From Blastococcus haudaquaticus (GTDB lineage: Bacteria > Actinomycetota > Actinomycetes > Mycobacteriales > Geodermatophilaceae): a DNA stretch of 64,000 nt. The stretch lies in the NCBI RefSeq assembly GCF_900230285.1, contig NZ_OCNK01000006.1:62001-126000 (forward strand), in the 5' to 3' direction. Position 1 is the stretch's first letter. Each line of letters begins with the position of its first letter. This document shows, one piece after another, positions 822 to 9,661 of this stretch. The notes beneath the pieces are model-generated. The model was given only the letters and a program-made list of their open reading frames with translations. It had not been told where the DNA came from and did not search any database. The position numbers and the translations under genes were made by a program.

Positions 822-1286
822 TCAGGCGCGTGTGGCGGTGAACTCCACCAGGTCGGTCGTGACCTTCGTGCAGTGCAGCCGCAGTCCCCCGGTCGACACA
901 GTCACGCCGTCGGTGCAGGGGAAGGTCTCGCGTCCCACCCGTAAGGTCGCCTGGCCGTCGCGGATGTGGTCGAGCGAGATGGTCGTCCCGAGGACCTGCA
1001 CGAGCGAGCCGGTCCCCCCGAGCGTGACAGAGCACGAGTTCCCGGAGCAGGACAACACGGCCACGCTGCCGGAGACGGTTCGGCCCGGCTGACCTGGCTG
1101 CCCGGGGGCACCGGGAGAACCGGACGCGCCGGCCGACCCGGGCGCACCCGGAGAGCCGGGCTGGCCGGAAGCACCGGCTGCGCTGCTGGAACTGCTGTAA
1201 CCCGAGGGGCTCCAGCACGCCGTCAGCAGGCCGAGCAACAGCACTGGGAGCAGGACCCGCGAGGAGAACTGACCGCGCCGGTTCAC
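822..1286 (-). CDS. Lipoprotein with a short collagen-like Gly-X-Y stretch
   Basis: The 154-residue product starts (GTG) with a lipoprotein signal peptide: MNRRGQFSSRV, a hydrophobic core, and the lipobox LLTAC (Cys near residue 24). A Ser-rich linker follows, then about ten uninterrupted Gly-X-Y triplets (residues about 38-68, many GQP, GSP, GAP), then a compact domain with three further cysteines and predicted beta structure. I do not recognise the C-terminal domain. The gene begins 7 bp after the stop of the upstream LuxR-type regulator on the same strand, so the two are likely co-transcribed. Predicted location is the outer face of the membrane. A collagen-like stretch this short would form at most a small trimer; it could also be just a flexible linker. 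Confidence 0.75.
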   Translation of the reverse strand: MNRRGQFSSRVLLPVLLLGLLTACWSPSGYSSSSSAAGASGQPGSPGAPGSAGASGSPGAPGQPGQPGRTVSGSVAVLSCSGNSCSVTLGGTGSLVQVLGTTISLDHIRDGQATLRVGRETFPCTDGVTVSTGGLRLHCTKVTTDLVEFTATRA

Positions 1287-1293
1287 GACCGGA

Positions 1294-3957
1294 TCACCAG
1301 GGTCCGTCCGCGGCGAGCGCCGTCTCGAGGGCAGCCCGGCTGTTGATGCCGAGCTTGTCGTACACGTGCGCCAGGTGGGTCTCCACCGTGCGGACGGACA
1401 AAACGAGCCGCTCCGCGATCGCGTGGTTGCTGAGGCCCTCAGCGGCCCACGCGGCGATCTGCTGCTCGCGGCGGGACAGCGCGTACGGGCTGAGTCGCGA
1501 GAGGGCGGGCGTCGTCAGGCCGCCGGCGGCTCGTGCGAGGCCGACCGCCAGTGCGCCGGAGGCAGCCGCACGGCGACGGTGGCCCGCGGCCCGGTGCGCT
1601 GCTGCGGCCTGCGCCGCGGCGTCCGCGGCCAGGACGCGCAGGCCGCGCAGTCGGAACTCTGCCGCGACGTCGTCGAGCTGCTCGCCGAGCCCACGGACGG
1701 CAGCGTCCGCCTGAGCCGCGAGCAGACCGGCGAACGTCCCTCCGATGTCCGTGGCGACCTCGCGGAGTCGTCCGGCGACGGTGCCGACGCGGCCGAGTCG
1801 AGCAGCTGTGTGCAGGCTGCGTCCCTCCAGCGCGAGCTGTCCCGCTTCTCCGGCCGTGAGAGCGGCACTCAATGCCAGCCGGCCCGCCTCCCGCTCGCGC
1901 CCGGCGGTTGCCGCCGTCCATGCCTGCGCAAGCAGCAATTCCGCGTCGAAGCAGCGCACTGCACGGTCGCTCGGCACGCCCAGCAGGATGGCCTCTGCCG
2001 AGGACTTCTCCCCGCGTAGCGCCTGGACCTCGGCCTGCTTCGCCTGGCACAGGGCGAGGACTCCGAGGGGGTCGCACGCGCTCAGTCCCGAGGCCGCCTC
2101 GGCGAGCCAGTGCTCTGCGTCCTGCAACCGGCCGGCGGCGAGTGCGGCGAGCCCCTGCCCTAGGGCAGCCACCGCGTCCGCCGCGGACCGCGGGCGAGCC
2201 ATCGTGCGCTCGTGGAGCTCGACCGCCCTGGCCTCGAGGCGATTCACTCGGCCGTCGAGGTCGAGGGCGAGGAGCTCGGCAACGAGGAGGCCGGCCCGGA
2301 CCGACTGGCTCTCGGTGTCGGAGGTCGAGGCTTCCAGGGCTGCCCACCCGCGCTTCGCCGCCACCACTGCCTCGTCCGCCCGGCCGAGCAGCCCGAGGCC
2401 AAGCGTTGACGCCAGCGAGGTCCACGGCGCGGCAGCGTGAGTGGCCGGTGGGTCGGGGCGGGGATCGGCGGAGAGATCGACATCTCCGGACAGCATCCGG
2501 AGCAGGGACTCCGCGCCGGTCAGGGCGTCAGCCCCGCCGCTCGAGCGGTCGGTACGGGCCAGGGCCAGTGCGTCGTCCCAACGACCGAGCCCGAGCATGA
2601 GGTTCAACATGCGGGTGACCGCGAGACTGCGGCCCTCGGGCAGGTGCCGCTGCATCGGCGTGCCCCCTGCCACGGCCTCGGCCTGCTCGGGGTCCGCGAG
2701 CCACCGCAGCGCCTCGGCGAGAGCAGTCTGCGCCGCCACCGACGGCCCGTGCTCCAGCGCAGCCCGGGCAAGGCGCTCGGCCAGCCGGGAGTCGGACCGG
2801 GCGTTCGCCTCGGCGGCTGCCCGGGCCAGCACGGGCGGGTCGGCCGGAGAGACGCCCAGCTCGAGGAGCAGCGGTCCGATGCGAGCGGGGTTCTCCCGAG
2901 CCCACCGGCGGACGCACTGGGTGCTGGCGAGCCTGGTGCGGAAGTCGCTCGCGGCCGAGTGAGGCATCGCGGCGCACAGGACCTTGGCGTCCAGCGGGCG
3001 GGCCACTCGTGCGACCGGTCGCTGGCCGTCGGTCTGGACGGTCACGAGTCCTCGACGCTCCAGTGCGGCGACGACGTCGGACGAGCTCAGCGCGACCAGG
3101 TCGGGGAGTTCGAGCTCCCCGATGAGGGCCAGCAGCTCCATGGTCGCGCGCTCGTCGTCGCCGATGTCGCCCATCAGGGTGCGGACGACCTCGCACAGGC
3201 GGTCGGTGAGGACCGGGTCGCCGTCCCACTGCCACAGCTCGTCGTACCGGTCCAGCCGCGACACCTGCAGCCCGGCCTCGACGACCTCACGGAGGAGGAC
3301 GGCGTTCCCCGCGGACGCCTCGTGAAGTTCCTGACATGTTCGCGACGTCGGGCGGCCACCCAGTCGCGCGGTGAGCAGCTCGGTCACGTGGGACAGCGCG
3401 AGCGGGCGCAGTTCCACCTGGGCCGCCAGTCCGTCGTGCCACAGCGCCTTGACGAGGTCGGGCGCGCGTGCCCCGCCTAGGACCGTCACCACGGCGTCGG
3501 CCATCCGGGTCAGGACCAGTTTGTGCACCAGTGCGGCGGAGACGTCGTCCAACAGGTGGGCGTCGTCGACGACGATGAGGGGACGGGGCTGACCGGGTCC
3601 TGCGTCGAAGGCCGCCGCGAGCGCCTGCCACATGGCCGTCGTATCGGTCGCGGCTGCCCCCGGCGGAACGAGGTGCGCCACCGCCTCCAACGGGATTGCC
3701 GAGGCCGCACGTGTGCCGGTGACCCACTCCGTGCGCCGGTTCCCTTGGTCCAAGGCAGCGACCGCTTCCCGCGCCAGGCGGGTGCGACCCGAACCGCCCG
3801 GTCCCGACACGACGACGGCCGAGACGTCGGTGTCGCTCAGCTCGGCGAGGACGGTCGCCAGCTTGTGATCCCTGTCGACGAACGGCCAGCGCCGGATGGC
3901 ATGGGGGAGGGGATCGGTACATGCGGCATAGCGATGCTCGACTGCAATTTCAGACAT
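1294..3957 (-). CDS. LuxR-family regulator with N-terminal AAA/STAND ATPase (LAL type)
   Basis: The 887-residue protein has the architecture of large ATP-binding LuxR regulators: a P-loop at residues 52-59 (GPGGSGRT), a Walker B-like strand ([13 protein letters not shown], about 125-140), a long helical repeat region rich in Ala/Leu (about 340-800), and a C-terminal LuxR helix-turn-helix ([19 protein letters not shown], about 820-880). The invariant P-loop lysine is replaced by arginine, so ATP hydrolysis is uncertain. The start ATG has GAGGGAG about 10 bp upstream. It is transcribed away from the glycine-rich peptide genes and toward the lipoprotein gene, with which it probably forms an operon. 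Its position makes it the obvious candidate regulator of the peptide/protease cassette, but no binding site is proven. Confidence 0.85.
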
Positions 3958-4573: not shown

Positions 4574-5094
4574 CTTCACCATTCGTGCGTGCGCGGCAAC
4601 TTTCCGCAGTGCGTATCGGAATCCGGGTCCTACGTGACCGCGGCCGGATGTCGCGTATTGCAGGTCCGATCATTGCGTGTCGCCACCGGCGTTCCCCGTG
4701 CCATTTCAGGTTGTCGACCCATGGCCAGCGACTCACTATCTGTTCACCGGATTCGGTGTGAATTCGGTGTTCGGGCGGGAGCGGGGGAGTCCCACCGTTG
4801 TGTCGGTGCATCCTTCTGCTGGCTCTTGCCATTCTCTCGGGGGCATTCCCCCGGCTACGAGGAGGAATCATGTTCGCAGACCAGACCGTCGAGCTCCTGC
4901 CGGCGCGCACCACCATGACCGCCAGCGGCTGCGGGTGTGGAAGCCGTCGCCGGGGCGGCAACGGGGGACGGGGCGGCAACGGCGGAACGGCCATCAGCGT
5001 GCTCGCCGTGAACATCGCGGGGGTGAACCTCGGTGACCAGAACGCCGGGGCCTTCGCCAACGGTGGCGCCGGCGGCGCCGGCGGCAACGGCTGA
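4574..5094 (+). repeat. Tandem duplication, copy A (leader region plus peptide gene)
   Basis: This roughly 520-bp unit is repeated at 5258-5778 with a constant offset of 684 bp. The similarity starts at CTTCACC, covers about 296 bp of upstream sequence and the complete 225-bp peptide gene, and stops at the stop codon. Shared upstream blocks include CATTGCGTGTCGCCAC, CGTTCCCCGTGCCATTT, CCACCGTTGTGTCGGTGCAT, GGGGGCATTCCCC and CGAGGAGGAATCATG. GGGGGCATTCCCC is a small inverted repeat directly before the ribosome binding site. Both copies keep the long leader, which argues that the leader carries conserved promoter or regulatory function. Confidence 0.9.
4870..5094 (+). CDS. Glycine-rich 74-residue peptide, copy A (candidate precursor peptide)
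   Basis: The start ATG is fixed by AGGAGG six bases upstream and by identity with the second copy. Residues 1-18 are non-glycine-rich and leader-like, with VELLPARTT; residues 19-25 hold two cysteines (SGCGCGS), followed by RRR and glycine/asparagine repeats (GGNGGRGGNGG, 29-39), a hydrophobic VN-containing core (44-54), then GDQNAGAFANGG and a Gly/Ala tail. There is no signal peptide or transmembrane helix. I know no family for it. Two copies, strong translation signals, and a downstream membrane protease with a peptide-recognition-like domain suggest the substrate of a ribosomal peptide maturation system. A structural or amyloid-like glycine-rich protein is the main alternative. Confidence 0.75.
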   Translation: MFADQTVELLPARTTMTASGCGCGSRRRGGNGGRGGNGGTAISVLAVNIAGVNLGDQNAGAFANGGAGGAGGNG

Positions 5095-5157
5095 CCGAGG
5101 GCTGCCGGCGCCGGAGCTCTGGCTGAGGAGTCGCTGGCCGGCTCCGGGTGACGTCGG

Positions 5158-5208
5158 GACCCGTGAAACGGGTCGGGTGCGGGGGGCGACCGTCCGGTCG
5201 CCCCCCGC
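5158..5208 (+). terminator. Two adjacent hairpins after peptide gene A
   Basis: A 7-bp stem (5158-5164 with 5168-5174, loop GAA) is followed by a perfect 13-bp GC stem with a 4-nt loop (5179-5191 with 5196-5208). There is no T-run, as is common for terminators in high-GC actinobacteria. It would separate the transcript of peptide A from copy B, which has its own duplicated upstream region. Confidence 0.65.
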
Positions 5209-5257
5209 TGTCCGTGGTGACAGGGGTATGACGCCCGGACCTCGTGCCCGAGCCGCC

Positions 5258-5778
5258 CTTCACCGTTCGTGCGGAGGCCGCGACAATCCGCATTGCGTGT
5301 CGCAATCCTGGTCCTACGTGAGGGGCGCCGGACGCCGCGTACTGATCGTCCGATGATTGCGTGTCGCCACGCGCGTTCCCCGTGCCATTTCCGGTTGCTG
5401 TCCCCATGGCCGGCGACCCAGGATCTGTTTACCGGGTTCGTTCTGAAGTCGGTGTCCAGGCGGGAGCGGGGGAATTCCCACCGTTGTGTCGGTGCATTCT
5501 TCCGCTGGCTCCTGCCAATTCCCGGGGGCATTCCCCGTCTACGAGGAGGAATCATGTTCGCAGACCAGACCGTCGAGCTCCTGCCGGCGCGCACCACGAT
5601 GACCGCCAGCGGCTGCGGGTGTGGGAGCCGTCGCCGGGGCGGCAACGGGGGACGGGGCGGCAACGGTGGAACGGCCATCAGCCTCGTCGCCGTGAACTTC
5701 GCGCTGGTGAACGGCGGCGACCAGAACGCCGGGGCCTTCGCCAACGGCGGGTCCGGCGGCGCCGGCGGCAACGCCTGA
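5258..5778 (+). repeat. Tandem duplication, copy B (leader region plus peptide gene)
   Basis: Second copy of the unit at 4574-5094. The upstream part has diverged by substitutions with little net length change, while the first 43 codons of the gene differ only at silent sites. The block ATTGCGTGTCGC appears twice in this copy (about 5293 and 5354) and, with one copy altered, at the matching places in copy A. This makes it a candidate regulator-binding repeat. Confidence 0.9.
5554..5778 (+). CDS. Glycine-rich 74-residue peptide, copy B (candidate precursor peptide)
   Basis: Same length and start context (CGAGGAGGAATC before ATG) as copy A. Residues 1-43 are identical to copy A; the seven differences are at 44, 45, 49, 51, 54, 67 and 74, so all variation sits in the hydrophobic core and C-terminal tail. 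This split into an invariant front and a variable back is what is known from families of ribosomal precursor peptides with a conserved leader, but it could also reflect a structural protein with a constant N-terminal domain. The gene ends 105 bp before the M50-type membrane protein, with a strong hairpin in between. Function not known. Confidence 0.75.
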   Translation: MFADQTVELLPARTTMTASGCGCGSRRRGGNGGRGGNGGTAISLVAVNFALVNGGDQNAGAFANGGSGGAGGNA

Positions 5779-5817
5779 CACCAGCTGACGCGGCCGCGCC
5801 GATGACGGTGCGGTTCC

Positions 5818-5858
5818 GGGAGGGAGAGGTGGCTGGTCACCGGCCGCCTCTCCCTCCC
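5818..5858 (+). terminator. Hairpin between peptide gene B and the membrane protease gene (possible attenuator)
   Basis: A perfect 12-bp stem (5818-5829 with 5847-5858) extends by four further pairs (one T-G) around a short loop. No T-run follows. Its place directly after the peptide gene and 25 bp before the start of the protease gene suits partial termination, which would give many peptide transcripts and few protease transcripts. This is inference from position. Confidence 0.6.
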
Positions 5859-5883
5859 GCACAGCGGGAGAGGACGAGTCGGC

Positions 5884-8439
5884 ATGACGACGACCATCGC
5901 GGAGCTTCACCAGGAGCGCCCGGCCGAAGCACCGGGAGGGGAGCAGCGCCCGCCCGCCCCCGCCGGACCAGCAGCCGGGCCCGCGGGTGCGGCGGCCGCC
6001 GATCTCGCCGTCCCGCTGCATCGGACCGAGGGCGTCGAACTCCTCGGTGAGTACCAAGGCTCCGGCTATCAGACCCGGAAGTTCCTGGTCCGCCGGTCCG
6101 ACGGGCAGGTCATGCAGCTGCCCGAACTGCTGTACCGGATCGCCGAGGCGCTGGACGGGCGGGACGCCGGCCGGATCGCCGACGATCTCGGTCGCCGGTT
6201 CGCCGAGGAACTCGACGAGCCGCTGACCCCCGAGCAGGTGCGCTACCTGGTCGACGAGAGGTTGCGCCCGGTCGGCATCGTGGCCGCCGATGCGGCCGAG
6301 GACACCTCCGCGGCGTCGCCGGCTCCGGTCATGCCCGATCTCCTATTGGCGCTGCGGTACCGGGTCGGCGTCATCCCCGCCGCGGTCGCCTGGCGCATCG
6401 CGGGAGTCTTCGAAGGTTTCTTCACCCGGCCGGCCTGGGTCGCGGCGCTCACCGCGTTCGTCGTGGTCGATGCGGCCGTCCTGCTCTCCGTCGACGGCCT
6501 CTTCGCCACGCTCCTCACGGGTGTGACCGACTACATCAGGCATCCGCAGCTGGTGCTCGTGCTCTTCGGGCTGATGGTGCTGGCGAACGTCTTCCACGAG
6601 TGCGGTCACGTCACCGCCTGCCGCTACGGAGGCGCCCGGCCCGGCGAGATGGGGCTCGGGCTCTACATCGTTTGGCCGGCGCTGTACAGCAACGTCACGG
6701 ATGCCTACCGCCTGGACCGGACAGGTCGGCTGCGTACCGATCTTGGCGGCGTCTACTTCAACGCCATCTCCATGACCGTCGTGGGTGTCCTGTACCTGCA
6801 CACCGGTGAACCATGGGTGCTCGTCGCCCTGCTGACCATGCACACCGAGACGGCCGCACAGTTCCTCCCGTCGATCCGGCTGGACGGCTACTACATGCTC
6901 GGCGACATCGCCGGCGTCCCCGAGCTGTTCGGCTACGTCGGCCCCGTGCTCCGCAGCGCGCTCCCCGGTCGGCCCACGGACCCGAAGGTCCGGCAGCTCC
7001 GCCCGTGGTCCCGGCGGCTGATCGTGCTGTGGGTCGCCCTCACGGTGCCGCTGCTGACTTTCTACCTCGTCGTCTTCCTGCTGGTTCTGCCGCGCGCCCT
7101 CCCCTACGTCTGGCAAGCGGTCCTGGAGTACCAGCGGACGGTCGAGGGCGCGATGCAGAACGGCGACATCGGGACCCTGTCGTTGAGCGTCCTGCAGTTC
7201 GTGCTCCTCGTCCTTCCCTGGCTCGGCACCGTGCTCATGGCGACCCTGACCTACCGCATGGTCCAGCCCCTGCTGGCCCGGCGGTGGCCGTGGTTCGCCC
7301 CGCGGGAGGGGAGGGGTGCCCGTCTGCGCCGGTCGTTGGCGTGGGCCGCGGCCGGGGGGTCCGCCGTCGTGCTGCTGGTCCGGGTCGCGCTCGTCGCCGA
7401 GTCGGCTCCCGCCGGCACGGCCGAGGAGCGGGTCGCGAACGCGGCGGCGGCCGTCATGCGGGTCGGGCGCGAGGCGGCGCCCGCAGTGCCGGTCGGTGAC
7501 ATCGCAGTGCGGGATCAGGTCGCCGGCTGGGGGTGGCTCACGGCGGCCTTCGACCGTCACCCCGACGCGCTCACCGCGGCGCGCGAGGTGGCTGTCCTGT
7601 CCGTCCTGGTGATGGTCCTCTCGCTGCTGGTCATCGCCTGGCAGCGGCGCTGGCCGGCGGCTGCGGTCGTCGCCACGCTCGCCGCCGCAGCGGTGATGGG
7701 ACCGGTCGTGTCCCTCTTCGGTGTGCTGACCGCGGCGGGTCTCTCAGCGGGATGGGGGGCGGCCGGCACGGCCCTCCTCGTGCTGGCCCAGGGGCGCAGG
7801 CACGGGCGGCACCGCCGGCGGCAGCATCGCTGGCTGCACCCGTCGCTCACGGTCCTGGGTGCGGTGTGCCTCGGGGTGGCCGTCCTGACCGAACCGATGC
7901 TGATCGTCGCTCTCGCGGCGGTAGGACTCGTCCAGGTGCTGCGCGGGACGGCGGTGACCCCGACCCGGGCGACGTGGGCCGGACTCGTGCTCGGCACCGC
8001 CGCCCTGATCGGCCTGGCGGTGGCGATAGTCCCCGGTCGCCTCGACCAGCCGATGTCGACCGGCCTGGCCGACGTGCAGCAGCAGGTCGTGCTCGGTCTC
8101 GCCGGCCTCGTGGTGCTGGCGGCCGTAGGCCTGCGGCTGGTGCCGGTGCCGGCGCTCCTCGTGGCCTCCCTGCTCGTGCCCGCGGCGCTCATGCTGCCCG
8201 GCAGCGACGGTGTCCTGCCCGTTCTCGTCGCGACCACGGCGGGTCTGGGGGCGCTGCTCCTCGCCGACCTGCTGCGTCTGCCGCCGACGGAGCGTCGGCA
8301 TCCCCTGGTCCGGGGGATCATCGCCATACCGGTCGTCGTGGTGGTCCTGGTTGGCCTGCTCTACCTCCCGGCCGGCTCCGGGAGCAGCCAGACGGAGCTA
8401 CCCGCGACCGCGCCGTCGGTGGGCGCCGCCACGGACTAG
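5884..8439 (+). CDS. Polytopic membrane protein with PqqD/RRE-like N-terminus and M50 (site-2-protease type) zinc motif
   Basis: The 851-residue protein begins with a Pro/Ala-rich stretch (1-44). A soluble segment (about 46-135, HRTEGVELLGEYQG to RLRPVGIV) follows whose pattern of short strands and a helical part resembles PqqD-like peptide-recognition (RRE) domains. A membrane part of perhaps 14-15 helices comes next. The zinc motif HECGH is at residues 238-242 at the end of a hydrophobic helix, and the third-ligand motif LDGYY at 333-337 (Asp334), as in M50 intramembrane proteases and in peptide-processing relatives such as YydH. The C-terminal half (about 480-850) is additional membrane segments of unknown role. 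It follows two glycine-rich peptide genes and precedes a methyltransferase. Maturation or export of those peptides is the natural reading; the RRE assignment is tentative. Confidence 0.8.
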   Translation: MTTTIAELHQERPAEAPGGEQRPPAPAGPAAGPAGAAAADLAVPLHRTEGVELLGEYQGSGYQTRKFLVRRSDGQVMQLPELLYRIAEALDGRDAGRIADDLGRRFAEELDEPLTPEQVRYLVDERLRPVGIVAADAAEDTSAASPAPVMPDLLLALRYRVGVIPAAVAWRIAGVFEGFFTRPAWVAALTAFVVVDAAVLLSVDGLFATLLTGVTDYIRHPQLVLVLFGLMVLANVFHECGHVTACRYGGARPGEMGLGLYIVWPALYSNVTDAYRLDRTGRLRTDLGGVYFNAISMTVVGVLYLHTGEPWVLVALLTMHTETAAQFLPSIRLDGYYMLGDIAGVPELFGYVGPVLRSALPGRPTDPKVRQLRPWSRRLIVLWVALTVPLLTFYLVVFLLVLPRALPYVWQAVLEYQRTVEGAMQNGDIGTLSLSVLQFVLLVLPWLGTVLMATLTYRMVQPLLARRWPWFAPREGRGARLRRSLAWAAAGGSAVVLLVRVALVAESAPAGTAEERVANAAAAVMRVGREAAPAVPVGDIAVRDQVAGWGWLTAAFDRHPDALTAAREVAVLSVLVMVLSLLVIAWQRRWPAAAVVATLAAAAVMGPVVSLFGVLTAAGLSAGWGAAGTALLVLAQGRRHGRHRRRQHRWLHPSLTVLGAVCLGVAVLTEPMLIVALAAVGLVQVLRGTAVTPTRATWAGLVLGTAALIGLAVAIVPGRLDQPMSTGLADVQQQVVLGLAGLVVLAAVGLRLVPVPALLVASLLVPAALMLPGSDGVLPVLVATTAGLGALLLADLLRLPPTERRHPLVRGIIAIPVVVVVLVGLLYLPAGSGSSQTELPATAPSVGAATD

Positions 8440-8508
8440 CCGACAGCGTGATCCGGAGCTGACCGCACTTCCCGGCGGTGAACCCGCCCCCGCCCGGAGG
8501 GGGATGCG

Positions 8509-9048
8509 ATGCGAGGCTCCCCACGCCTGGTCTGGGTGGCCCAGGTCCTGCGGCCGGCCCCCGAGGAGCACGTCCTCGAGGTCGGATGCGGACACGGAGT
8601 GCTCGTCGGGCTCCTGGCCGAGCGGACACCGGCGGGCAGGGTCGTGGGTGTGGATCGCTCGCACACCATGATCACCTCGGCCGCGCGCCGGAACCACGCG
8701 CACCTGGCGGCCGGGCGCGCGCAGTTGGTGGAAGGCGATTTCGCTTCGGTCGACCTCGGACAGCAGCGTTTCGGCGCTGTCGTGGCCGTCAACGTGCGGG
8801 CCTTCTGGACGCCGCCGGCCGTGGAGTGGGACGTGGTCCGGCGGGTGCTGGAGCCGGACGGTCGGGTGCTGATCGCGCACAGCCTGCTCGCCAGCGGCGC
8901 GGAGGTGTCGGTGACCGACGCAGTGGTTCGGGCGGCGGGCGAACGGGGGATGCGTCTGGTCACGGTGCACCGGGCGCCTACCTCTCCGGTGCCGTCGCTC
9001 GCCCTCGAGCTTCGTCCGGCGAGCACGCTGACGAGGAGGAGTGGCTGA
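8509..9048 (+). CDS. Class I SAM-dependent methyltransferase, small
   Basis: The 179-residue protein shows motif I of class I methyltransferases (VLEVGCGHG, about residues 22-30), the acidic end of strand 2 (GVDRS) and a motif II/III-like region (FGAVVAVNVRAFW, LEPDGRVLIAHSL). GGAGGGGG lies about 6 bp before the ATG. It starts 69 bp after the M50-type gene and is likely co-transcribed with it. The substrate is unknown. It could modify the glycine-rich peptides, or it may be an unrelated small-molecule or RNA methyltransferase. It ends 58 bp from the convergent bldD. Confidence 0.8.
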   Translation: MRGSPRLVWVAQVLRPAPEEHVLEVGCGHGVLVGLLAERTPAGRVVGVDRSHTMITSAARRNHAHLAAGRAQLVEGDFASVDLGQQRFGAVVAVNVRAFWTPPAVEWDVVRRVLEPDGRVLIAHSLLASGAEVSVTDAVVRAAGERGMRLVTVHRAPTSPVPSLALELRPASTLTRRSG

Positions 9049-9106: not shown

Positions 9107-9661
9107 TCAGCGCGGGGCGCGGCGGCGCTCCCAGTTGGGGTCGAGCTCCTCGTCGTCGTCGTCTGGGCCACCGAAGCCGACGACGCTCTCCATGCCGGGG
9201 TTCAGCACCCCCCACTCGATGAGCCGCGAGGTCAGCTCGTCGGGGCTCATGTCGTAGATGATCGCCAGCGACTTGAGGTCCTCGGCACGGATCGAGAGCA
9301 CCTTGCCGTTGTAGTCGTGCCGCTGCGCCTGGATGGTCGAGGCGTACCGGGCCAGCGGGCCCGCCTCGTCGGCCGGCAGGGAGCCGAGCGACTCGAGGTT
9401 CAGCACGATCTTCGTGCTCGACGTGACCGCCGAGCTGGGCCGCGGATCGGGCAGCAGCTCGGAGACCGGCACGCCGTAGAAGACGGCCAGCTCGGACAGC
9501 CGCTGCACGGTGACCGCGCGGTCGCCGCGCTCGTAGGAACCGACGACGACTGCCTTCCAGCGGCCGTGCGACTTGTCTTCCACACCCTGGAGGGAGAGCC
9601 CCTGCTGGTTGCGGATGGCGCGGAGCCGGGCGCCGAGGGCCCGTGAGTAGTCGGTGCTCAT
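9107..9661 (-). CDS. bldD: Developmental regulator BldD, c-di-GMP responsive
   Basis: The 184-residue protein has an N-terminal helix-turn-helix domain (1-70, LGARLRAIRNQQGLSLQGVE) and the BldD C-terminal domain. The c-di-GMP signature RxD-X8-RxxD is intact: Arg114-His-Asp116, eight residues, Arg125-Ala-Glu-Asp128. In Streptomyces the c-di-GMP-bound dimer represses sporulation genes; here it may control growth-phase or motility/budding genes. I chose the ATG at 9661 because the family starts with STDYSRALGARL; a longer open frame upstream has no matching sequence. An acidic tail (DDDDEELD) is extra. It is divergent from the pyr operon, as in many actinobacteria. Confidence 0.92.
   Translation of the reverse strand: MSTDYSRALGARLRAIRNQQGLSLQGVEDKSHGRWKAVVVGSYERGDRAVTVQRLSELAVFYGVPVSELLPDPRPSSAVTSSTKIVLNLESLGSLPADEAGPLARYASTIQAQRHDYNGKVLSIRAEDLKSLAIIYDMSPDELTSRLIEWGVLNPGMESVVGFGGPDDDDEELDPNWERRRAPR

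Follow-up and report, generated by a model that had tools for sequence, protein, structure and literature searches.

How does an actinobacterium mature and release a short glycine-rich peptide when a membrane protease stands nearly alone beside the precursor genes? The question arises from a locus of Blastococcus haudaquaticus (contig NZ_OCNK01000006.1), lying in a window of 64,000 nucleotides, the whole stretch of DNA analyzed here. Two nearly identical 74-residue peptides are followed there by a membrane protein of 851 residues, in which a domain resembling a RiPP (ribosomally synthesized and post-translationally modified peptide) recognition element (RRE) is joined to an M50/site-2 protease. 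We conclude that the cassette probably makes secreted Gly-rich peptides with this RRE-M50 protein as its single core maturation enzyme, removing a leader after Met16. Put simply, these soil actinobacteria probably carry a cassette for Gly-rich peptides whose front tag is cut off by a membrane protease and which are released outside the cell. An earlier interpretation made from the letters of the window (the sequence-only reading) had described the peptides and the protease; its observations were confirmed and its interpretation was partly supported. A LAL-type regulator, a small lipobox protein (822-1286), and a glutaminyl cyclase (QC) in relatives were absent from it.

Precursor peptides and their leader

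Alignment of the two precursors (4870-5094 and 5554-5778, both on the plus strand) bore out that they are identical at residues 1-43 and differ at seven positions (44, 45, 49, 51, 54, 67, and 74). Thirteen codons are changed between the genes, and the 7 that alter a residue all lie at position 44 or beyond. A repeat search delimited a tandem duplication (4574-5779; spacing 684-686 nt), its first repeated stretch beginning at 4574. The repeated unit comprises each gene (92% identical) and ~300 nt of DNA ahead of it (80-83%). Judged from these identities the pair is a duplication, with chance similarity excluded. Both precursors carry the motif VELLPARTTM and terminate in NG or NA.

Relatives of the precursor and of the M50 protein were each sought in 112 genomes of the Geodermatophilaceae. 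Of the loci read, 16 had intact precursors: the window, L029-L040 (from precursor matches), and L071-L073 (from M50 matches). Two broken pieces from metagenome-assembled genomes (MAGs), L074 and L075, were left out of the counts; L075 retains an M50 piece, a LAL gene, and a degenerate leader. All 16 loci combined leader-bearing precursors, an RRE-M50 gene (HE[CFIV]GH), and a LAL homologue, with one to four precursors each (five in L029 if a long open reading frame (ORF) is counted). Peptide homologues were thus found next to an M50 gene in all family loci read, joined by one leader-like ORF from another family. This constant pairing supports the view, already taken in the sequence-only reading, that the M50 protein is the likely leader peptidase. 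M50 relatives of at least 45% identity occurred in 15 of the 112 genomes. The first peptide search gave 23 loci in other genomes, and seven of them (L017-L023), in which the leader is absent, were rejected as chance Gly matches.

In an alignment of 38 precursors (A1), the leader was invariant at M1, L9, L10, P11, R13, and T14 and the cores were variable, so that the N-terminal 16 residues were far better conserved than the remainder. Across the 16 family loci the leader takes the form MF[EA][DN]...[VI][ED]LLPxRT[TV][ML], with some GTG starts; two of the three precursors of L072 begin with MSE in place of the usual opening. In the window, we assign residues 1-16 of precursor 1 (MFADQTVELLPARTTM; 4870-4917, plus strand) and of precursor 2 (5554-5601, plus strand) as the predicted leader, from this conservation and from a cut position given by relatives (below). 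A leader of about 18 residues had been proposed; a leader as such was supported, and its end was refined to residue 16.

The cores are rich in Gly, Ala, and Asn with little else conserved, the precursors extend to 134 residues or more, and the predicted mature peptides of the aligned precursors measure 44 to about 85 residues. The proposed two-cysteine core did not generalize, as only 2 of 37 other precursors contain any Cys, one each. CGCG or CC occurs shortly past the predicted cut in the window precursors (residues 20-22), in L125:6062-6310, and in L095:239-634, loci that otherwise differ. Two further sequences stood out. A 268-codon ORF (L029:4520-5326) combines the leader and a Gln at the cut with an extended tail of PVAPAxEPV repeats and a His/Gly-rich end, and a Pseudonocardia nigra precursor (L115:7239-7808) has a long Asp/Glu tract ahead of its Gly-rich part.

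Ten precursors, relatives included, had no credible match in Pfam or NCBIfam; the eight from relatives gave none in NCBIfam and two Pfam matches (E 0.09 and 0.21) to unrelated families. No precursor relatives were found in viral contigs. A text search of the PMC literature for leader strings returned, among the matches listed, only unrelated titles.

The RRE-M50 protein and the position of its cut

The proposed leader peptidase (5884-8439, plus strand) contains a HECGH zinc motif (residues 238-242; 6595-6609, plus strand) and an LDGYY motif with a distal Asp (residues 333-337; 6880-6894, plus strand), as had been noted before. Their catalytic residues H238, E239, H242, and D334 were invariant in all 26 aligned M50 sequences. 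HExxH and a distal Asp within a multi-transmembrane (TM) protein identify it as a site-2 protease of the M50 type, although Pfam returned no M50 match for the window protein. Two NCBIfam models recognized it below their cut-offs: daptide_HExxH (E 4e-25; 88.7 bits vs 300) and YydH/LiaK (NF058609; E 5.7e-11; 42.6 bits vs 225).

An RRE-like fold had been suggested for the N-terminal part of the protein, and structure prediction agreed. AlphaFold2 modeled the whole protein (26 sequences) with a mean predicted local distance difference test score (pLDDT) of 75.6 and an N-domain of three strands followed by three helices. The domain alone (residues 50-131; 6031-6276, plus strand; 15 sequences) was predicted as b-b-b-a-a-a with a pLDDT of 90.5. 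Its top Protein Data Bank (PDB) match in Foldseek was 5v1u, the TbiB1 lasso-peptide RRE with its leader bound (E=0.018; probability 1.00; TM-scores 0.59 and 0.63), and in fifth place stood 5why, a sactipeptide enzyme (probability 0.87). Some of the 15 domain members also matched sequence profiles, namely PqqD (3 of 15; best 0.0013), ApyI (4 of 15; best 4.7e-6), and the daptide protease (3 of 15). We therefore call the predicted domain RRE-like, on the basis of its fold and best structural match at modest E-values, with weak agreement from sequence profiles.

A number of relatives lack the C-terminal multi-TM half of the protein (7003-8388, plus strand; structure prediction and hydropathy) or have a shorter one. 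Its Foldseek likeness to GT-C glycosyltransferases (best E=0.013; top hits 0.01-0.1) had no support from hhalign, where the comparison was with one GT-C-type protein of the same genome, and this assignment was dropped. A tblastn search of plasmids with the M50 protein gave 8 records, none covering most of the protein.

The position of the cut was indicated by a second enzyme. Three M50 proteins bear a C-terminal addition that we took for a QC, and all of their precursors have Gln after LLPARTTM. The prediction set before testing, that a QC gene would lie near the other Gln precursors and none near the rest, held. The cyclase is fused to the M50 protein in L029, L030, and L035 and encoded by a separate gene in L032, L034, L036, L038, and L072; it was not found in the window, L031, L033, L037, L039, L040, L071, or L073. 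The named locus L156, from Geodermatophilus obscurus, has a QC, an M50 gene, and three precursors. PF05096 (glutamine cyclotransferase) matched the six QC proteins scanned with E 3.5e-88 to 1.7e-90 and scored above its cut-off in all 8 family hits. These 8 are all the PF05096 genes in the 112 family genomes and all 8 lie inside the loci; the genome of the window has no match.

Gln directly follows LLPxRTT[ML] in the precursors of all 8 QC loci, including the two long ORFs of L029 and L030 that A1 leaves out. Within A1, it is the sole residue that perfectly separates QC from non-QC peptides (24/24 vs 0/14). Extended to 44 M50 sequences (rows) accompanied by leader precursors, the comparison gave 8 with both Gln and QC, 36 with neither, and 0 mixed (naive Fisher p=5.6e-9, kinship ignored). 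The M50 tree requires three changes of QC label, at least 2 of them forced by well-supported branches; Gln and QC thus changed in step on more than one occasion.

QC acts on an N-terminal Gln, so the leader should end at the preceding Met or Leu. On this comparison of sequences we infer a cut after Met/Leu, which in the window would fall after Met16 and leave 58 residues from Thr17, and we predict pyroglutamate at the peptide N-terminus in QC-bearing relatives. Four of the five stand-alone QCs have a lipobox-like N-terminus from their own start (read by eye), and the fifth, that of L036, has a lipobox-like motif inside a long ORF of uncertain start. In the L030 fusion, the QC comes after the final predicted TM helix and an Arg-rich loop (crude hydropathy, read by eye). 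Positively charged loops of membrane proteins tend to stay inside, and these features predict a QC located outside the membrane. The new N-terminus of the peptide is therefore most likely exposed there, and mature peptides probably appear outside the membrane. No description of such protease-cyclase coupling appeared among the matches listed in the literature searches.

These data also bear on a different view of the peptides, as small surface or matrix proteins with the M50 protein limited to quality control or regulated intramembrane proteolysis and making no defined cut. The composition of the cores and the length of some precursors do resemble structural sequence. However, the conservation of residues 1-16 far exceeds that of the rest, the match of Gln with QC requires a defined cut, and the protease carries a fused RRE-like domain. 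We regard this view as quite unlikely.

Genomic company and spread

The LAL-type LuxR regulator (1294-3957, minus strand; AAA_16-like and GerE) is divergent from the peptide genes. Pfam supports GerE (8.5e-16) and places AAA_16 just below its cut-off (4.8e-7). Homologues in the other loci are 35-54% identical, those of L032 and L036 over about half the length in one BLAST piece. Were the mature peptides pheromones sensed by this regulator, the locus would be a quorum-sensing unit. Consistent with this, each of the 16 loci has a LAL homologue next to its peptides, which is divergently placed in many loci and unique in the genome of the window, where no second copy was found at E<=1e-10. Yet the predicted mature peptides are long for such a role, several different peptides share one LAL, and we know of no importer in the loci. 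Moreover, no LAL homologue was detected in nine Saccharopolyspora loci or in the Streptomyces loci read. A role as an ordinary pathway regulator accounts for the gene, and we hold the pheromone explanation to be improbable.

Beginning 7 nt beyond the LAL stop is the gene for the small lipobox protein (LTAC, read by eye; 822-1286, minus strand). It has a collagen-like stretch (Pfam Collagen 4.1e-6, just below cut-off) and a conserved C-terminal two-Cys domain. This domain was found in 13 of 16 loci, or 14 of 16 counting a second contig piece of genome G043, sometimes twice per locus; L031 and L040 are without it, and not every copy has the lipobox. The family is general (103 of 112 genomes), and its eight best non-self matches are all cassette-linked. 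We consider the protein a candidate immunity or anchor protein. One Geodermatophilus locus has a sortase gene convergent with its RRE-M50 gene (L031:6005-6718).

A small S-adenosylmethionine (SAM) methyltransferase (179 residues; 8509-9048, plus strand) was correctly recognized in the sequence-only reading (Pfam Methyltransf_25 E=3.6e-16) and counted there as part of the cassette. If it modified the peptide, the locus would encode a methylated RiPP. The gene is on the same strand and 69 nt past the M50 stop, it weakly matches the daptide methyltransferase model (4.3e-10, below cut-off), and, with QC missing from this genome, another N-terminal cap is conceivable. Nevertheless, it is absent from 15 of 15 other peptide loci. 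Homologues (32-58% identical) lie elsewhere in many genomes, 45 of 112 including this one, and none of the others is in a peptide locus. Four other NCBIfam models score better than the daptide model, all below cut-off. A peptide-methylating role is thus unlikely here, and the gene is ruled out as a general cassette part by its absence from the other loci and the distribution of its homologues. Its paralogue in the same genome (G000:C8:22102-22605) is 55% identical.

The cassette region is flanked on the left by nusB (396-803) and on the right by bldD (9107-9661), both assigned with Pfam, and 11 of the 16 loci sit between these genes; L029, L030, L031, L035, and L037 had none of the neighbours of this region in the stretch read. 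Further Pfam genes in the first 13.9 kb encode elongation factor P (EF-P), a phosphoribosyltransferase, aspartate/ornithine carbamoyltransferase, a dihydroorotase-like amidohydrolase, and the carbamoyl-phosphate synthase small chain. For relatives not scanned, the names LAL, lipobox, CteB, efp, pyrR, and bldD are our assumption, from general knowledge or homology to window genes. The 13 window proteins scanned in these 13.9 kb included no product of a radical SAM, YcaO, or lanthipeptide gene, in line with the sequence-only reading. A simple motif scan of the 64 kb window gave one ABC-type ORF. A promoter and terminator scan of the locus gave nothing useful.

Beyond the family, a scan of species genomes with the M50 alignment yielded 396 related stretches from 461 candidates. 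The top 80 made up 79 loci, and removing 11 duplicates and adding the family loci gave 99 M50 rows. A wider leader motif preceded the M50 gene on its own strand in 60 of 99 rows, compared with 9 of 99 on the opposite strand, where a somewhat larger window was searched. The leader reads ELLPART[VT][ML] in Pseudonocardia, EFLPARTV[ML] in Saccharopolyspora, AELLPGREAL in Streptomyces and Actinospica, and ELLPSRETL or ELLPMKETL in Arthrobacter. An ORF with VELLPDRTTL and a core that is not Gly-rich (L249:7077-7802, the same find as L089), from a different family (f20; 11 Mb genome), lies 241 nt ahead of an RRE-M50-type gene (549 codons, HECGH, 37.6% identity over 404 residues). A leader DNA pattern with CTN-only leucines, too strict for claims on distribution, detected the window and two others in 394 genomes of the class, one a chance frame and one the VELLPDRTTL ORF.

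Rows without a recognized leader included those of L076-L087, Chloroflexi and Thermoleophilia MAGs, Actinomadura, some Streptomyces, and a few Pseudonocardiaceae. L076-L087 form a second RRE-M50 family (~40% identical) in Blastococcus and its kin, without ELLP leader precursors. One of them, L079, has a dienelactone hydrolase-like gene, an ankyrin protein, an AI-2E-type transporter, and DUF350 nearby.

Several results weigh against the reading of the cassette as an RRE-guided, QC-marked leader-cleavage system. For the domain, no Foldseek E-value fell below 1e-3, and non-RRE proteins (GdmN and PKMT2) were among the next matches (probabilities 0.5-0.9). The profile check suggested with the sequence-only reading was passed by some relatives, as described above, and not by the window's own domain, which matched none of the PqqD, ApyI, or daptide profiles; a profile search of PDB sequences with the domain also found no RRE. 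For the cyclase, all 8 Gln/QC loci belong to one genus (g3) and are not fully independent, and QC is present in 138 of 397 genomes of the wider order, so it is not system-specific there. Among the 36 negatives, some come from short contigs, L113 and L114 have identical M50 rows, and L071 contributes two rows with shared peptides. For the leader, 39 of 99 rows had none recognized upstream, at least 2 of these being near misses (L075 and L128). Finally, no signal peptide or TM segment was seen in the precursor, and no conserved exporter was found by the ABC motif scan of the 99 rows (positive in 6, including 4 of the 44 with leader precursors).

Proposed route and relation to known systems

In the route we propose, the LAL regulator would be the likely switch for the peptide genes. 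The leader VELLPARTT[ML] would be bound by the RRE-like domain, as its fold and the logic of the family suggest, and the site-2-protease domain would cut just after Met16. The 58-residue remainder would then come free at the outer face of the membrane, given the predicted position of the QC. Geodermatophilus relatives in which cleavage exposes a Gln would convert it to pyroglutamate with an outward-facing QC, either fused to the M50 protein or attached by a lipobox anchor. In the genome of the window the new first residue would be Thr, and the end may stay free or, as a weak guess, be methylated by the adjacent enzyme. The small lipobox protein may serve as an anchor for the peptide or as protection for the producer. 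EpeP (PMC10885120) would be the nearest precedent for export of a precursor with neither an evident signal peptide nor a TM helix. Regarding the action of the peptides, we lean toward antagonism of neighbours, followed by surface self-assembly and then signalling. Antagonism is favoured because of the linkage to a lipobox protein, the several variable cores per locus, and the patchy presence of the cassette.

Daptides offer the closest comparison. According to PMC10036551, this class was discovered via RRE-fused site-2 proteases accompanied by a chain of other enzymes. As in daptide MpaP (NF041824), the RRE-like domain here is predicted to be fused N-terminally to an intramembrane site-2 protease, and there too several short precursors share a conserved N-terminal motif and the protease removes the leader, a step that is predicted here. 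In contrast, the leader motif is ELLPxR rather than the ELExMEAP given in the same text, the window precursors lack a C-terminal Thr, the cores are Gly-rich, and some relatives have a QC. Genes of the MpaB, MpaC, and MpaD type were also missing among the 13 window proteins scanned, as were oxidative decarboxylase, aminotransferase, and DUF-RRE genes, and the equivalog cut-off was not reached.

Epipeptide clusters contain a radical SAM epimerase, for which the scanned proteins gave no counterpart, and the YydH/LiaK score was likewise below its cut-off. The likeness is to the M50 protease EpeP/YydH, which, according to PMC10885120, is thought to cleave and export EpeX, although its deletion does not fully abolish production. 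These partial matches could suggest a daptide or epipeptide cluster after gene loss, as the M50 protein matches both protease models. Against such loss, both scores are far below the cut-offs, the leader motif is a different one and the C-terminal Thr is absent, the scanned window genes include no decarboxylase, aminotransferase, or radical SAM gene, and the same reduced core recurs in 16 loci. We judge gene loss extremely unlikely. By the features tested, the system is neither daptide nor epipeptide, as the sequence-only reading had anticipated in placing it in no known RiPP class. Our data support a small RiPP-like system with its own leader that fits no RiPP class found. As for core modification, QC is present in 8 loci, and no conserved modifying enzyme was identified in the locus of the window.

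Two further systems share single steps with the cassette. TMcin, described in a preprint (PMC13252029), has its bacteriocin leader removed at the membrane by TmcP, an enzyme of the site-2-protease clan. That system differs in its DUF3267 protease, TM-helix precursor, DsbA-like protein, and ABC exporter, and the preprint text consulted does not mention an RRE. In the Q-rule of Bacteroidetes, as outlined in PMC10653852, a Gln exposed by cleavage becomes pyroglutamate through a membrane-associated QC, a sequence of events predicted here. The Q-rule concerns Sec-exported proteins and type I signal peptidases, whereas the cassette would couple the QC to an RRE-M50 protease and one peptide family.

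We tentatively advance, with somewhat less than even confidence, that the loci represent an undescribed and widespread actinobacterial class. In such a class, one RRE-site-2-protease would be recognizer, leader peptidase, and exit route, without an ABC exporter. The only further maturation would come from a QC on the outer face, fused or tethered, and an ELLPxR code would unite Geodermatophilaceae, Pseudonocardiaceae, Streptomycetaceae, and Micrococcaceae.

A protease of this kind is already known from daptides and, distantly, from epipeptides. New here is the coupling of Gln and QC to an RRE-M50 cassette, which marks where the cut falls. With the cyclase as a guide, the cut site can be predicted from sequence alone and exact masses to look for can be given, and the leader motif provides a handle for mining a peptide family without a credible Pfam or NCBIfam match. 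With a protease nearly alone beside its precursors and a regulator, the cassette offers a simple setting for the recognition, cutting, and perhaps export of a soluble peptide, a matter that concerns EpeP as well.

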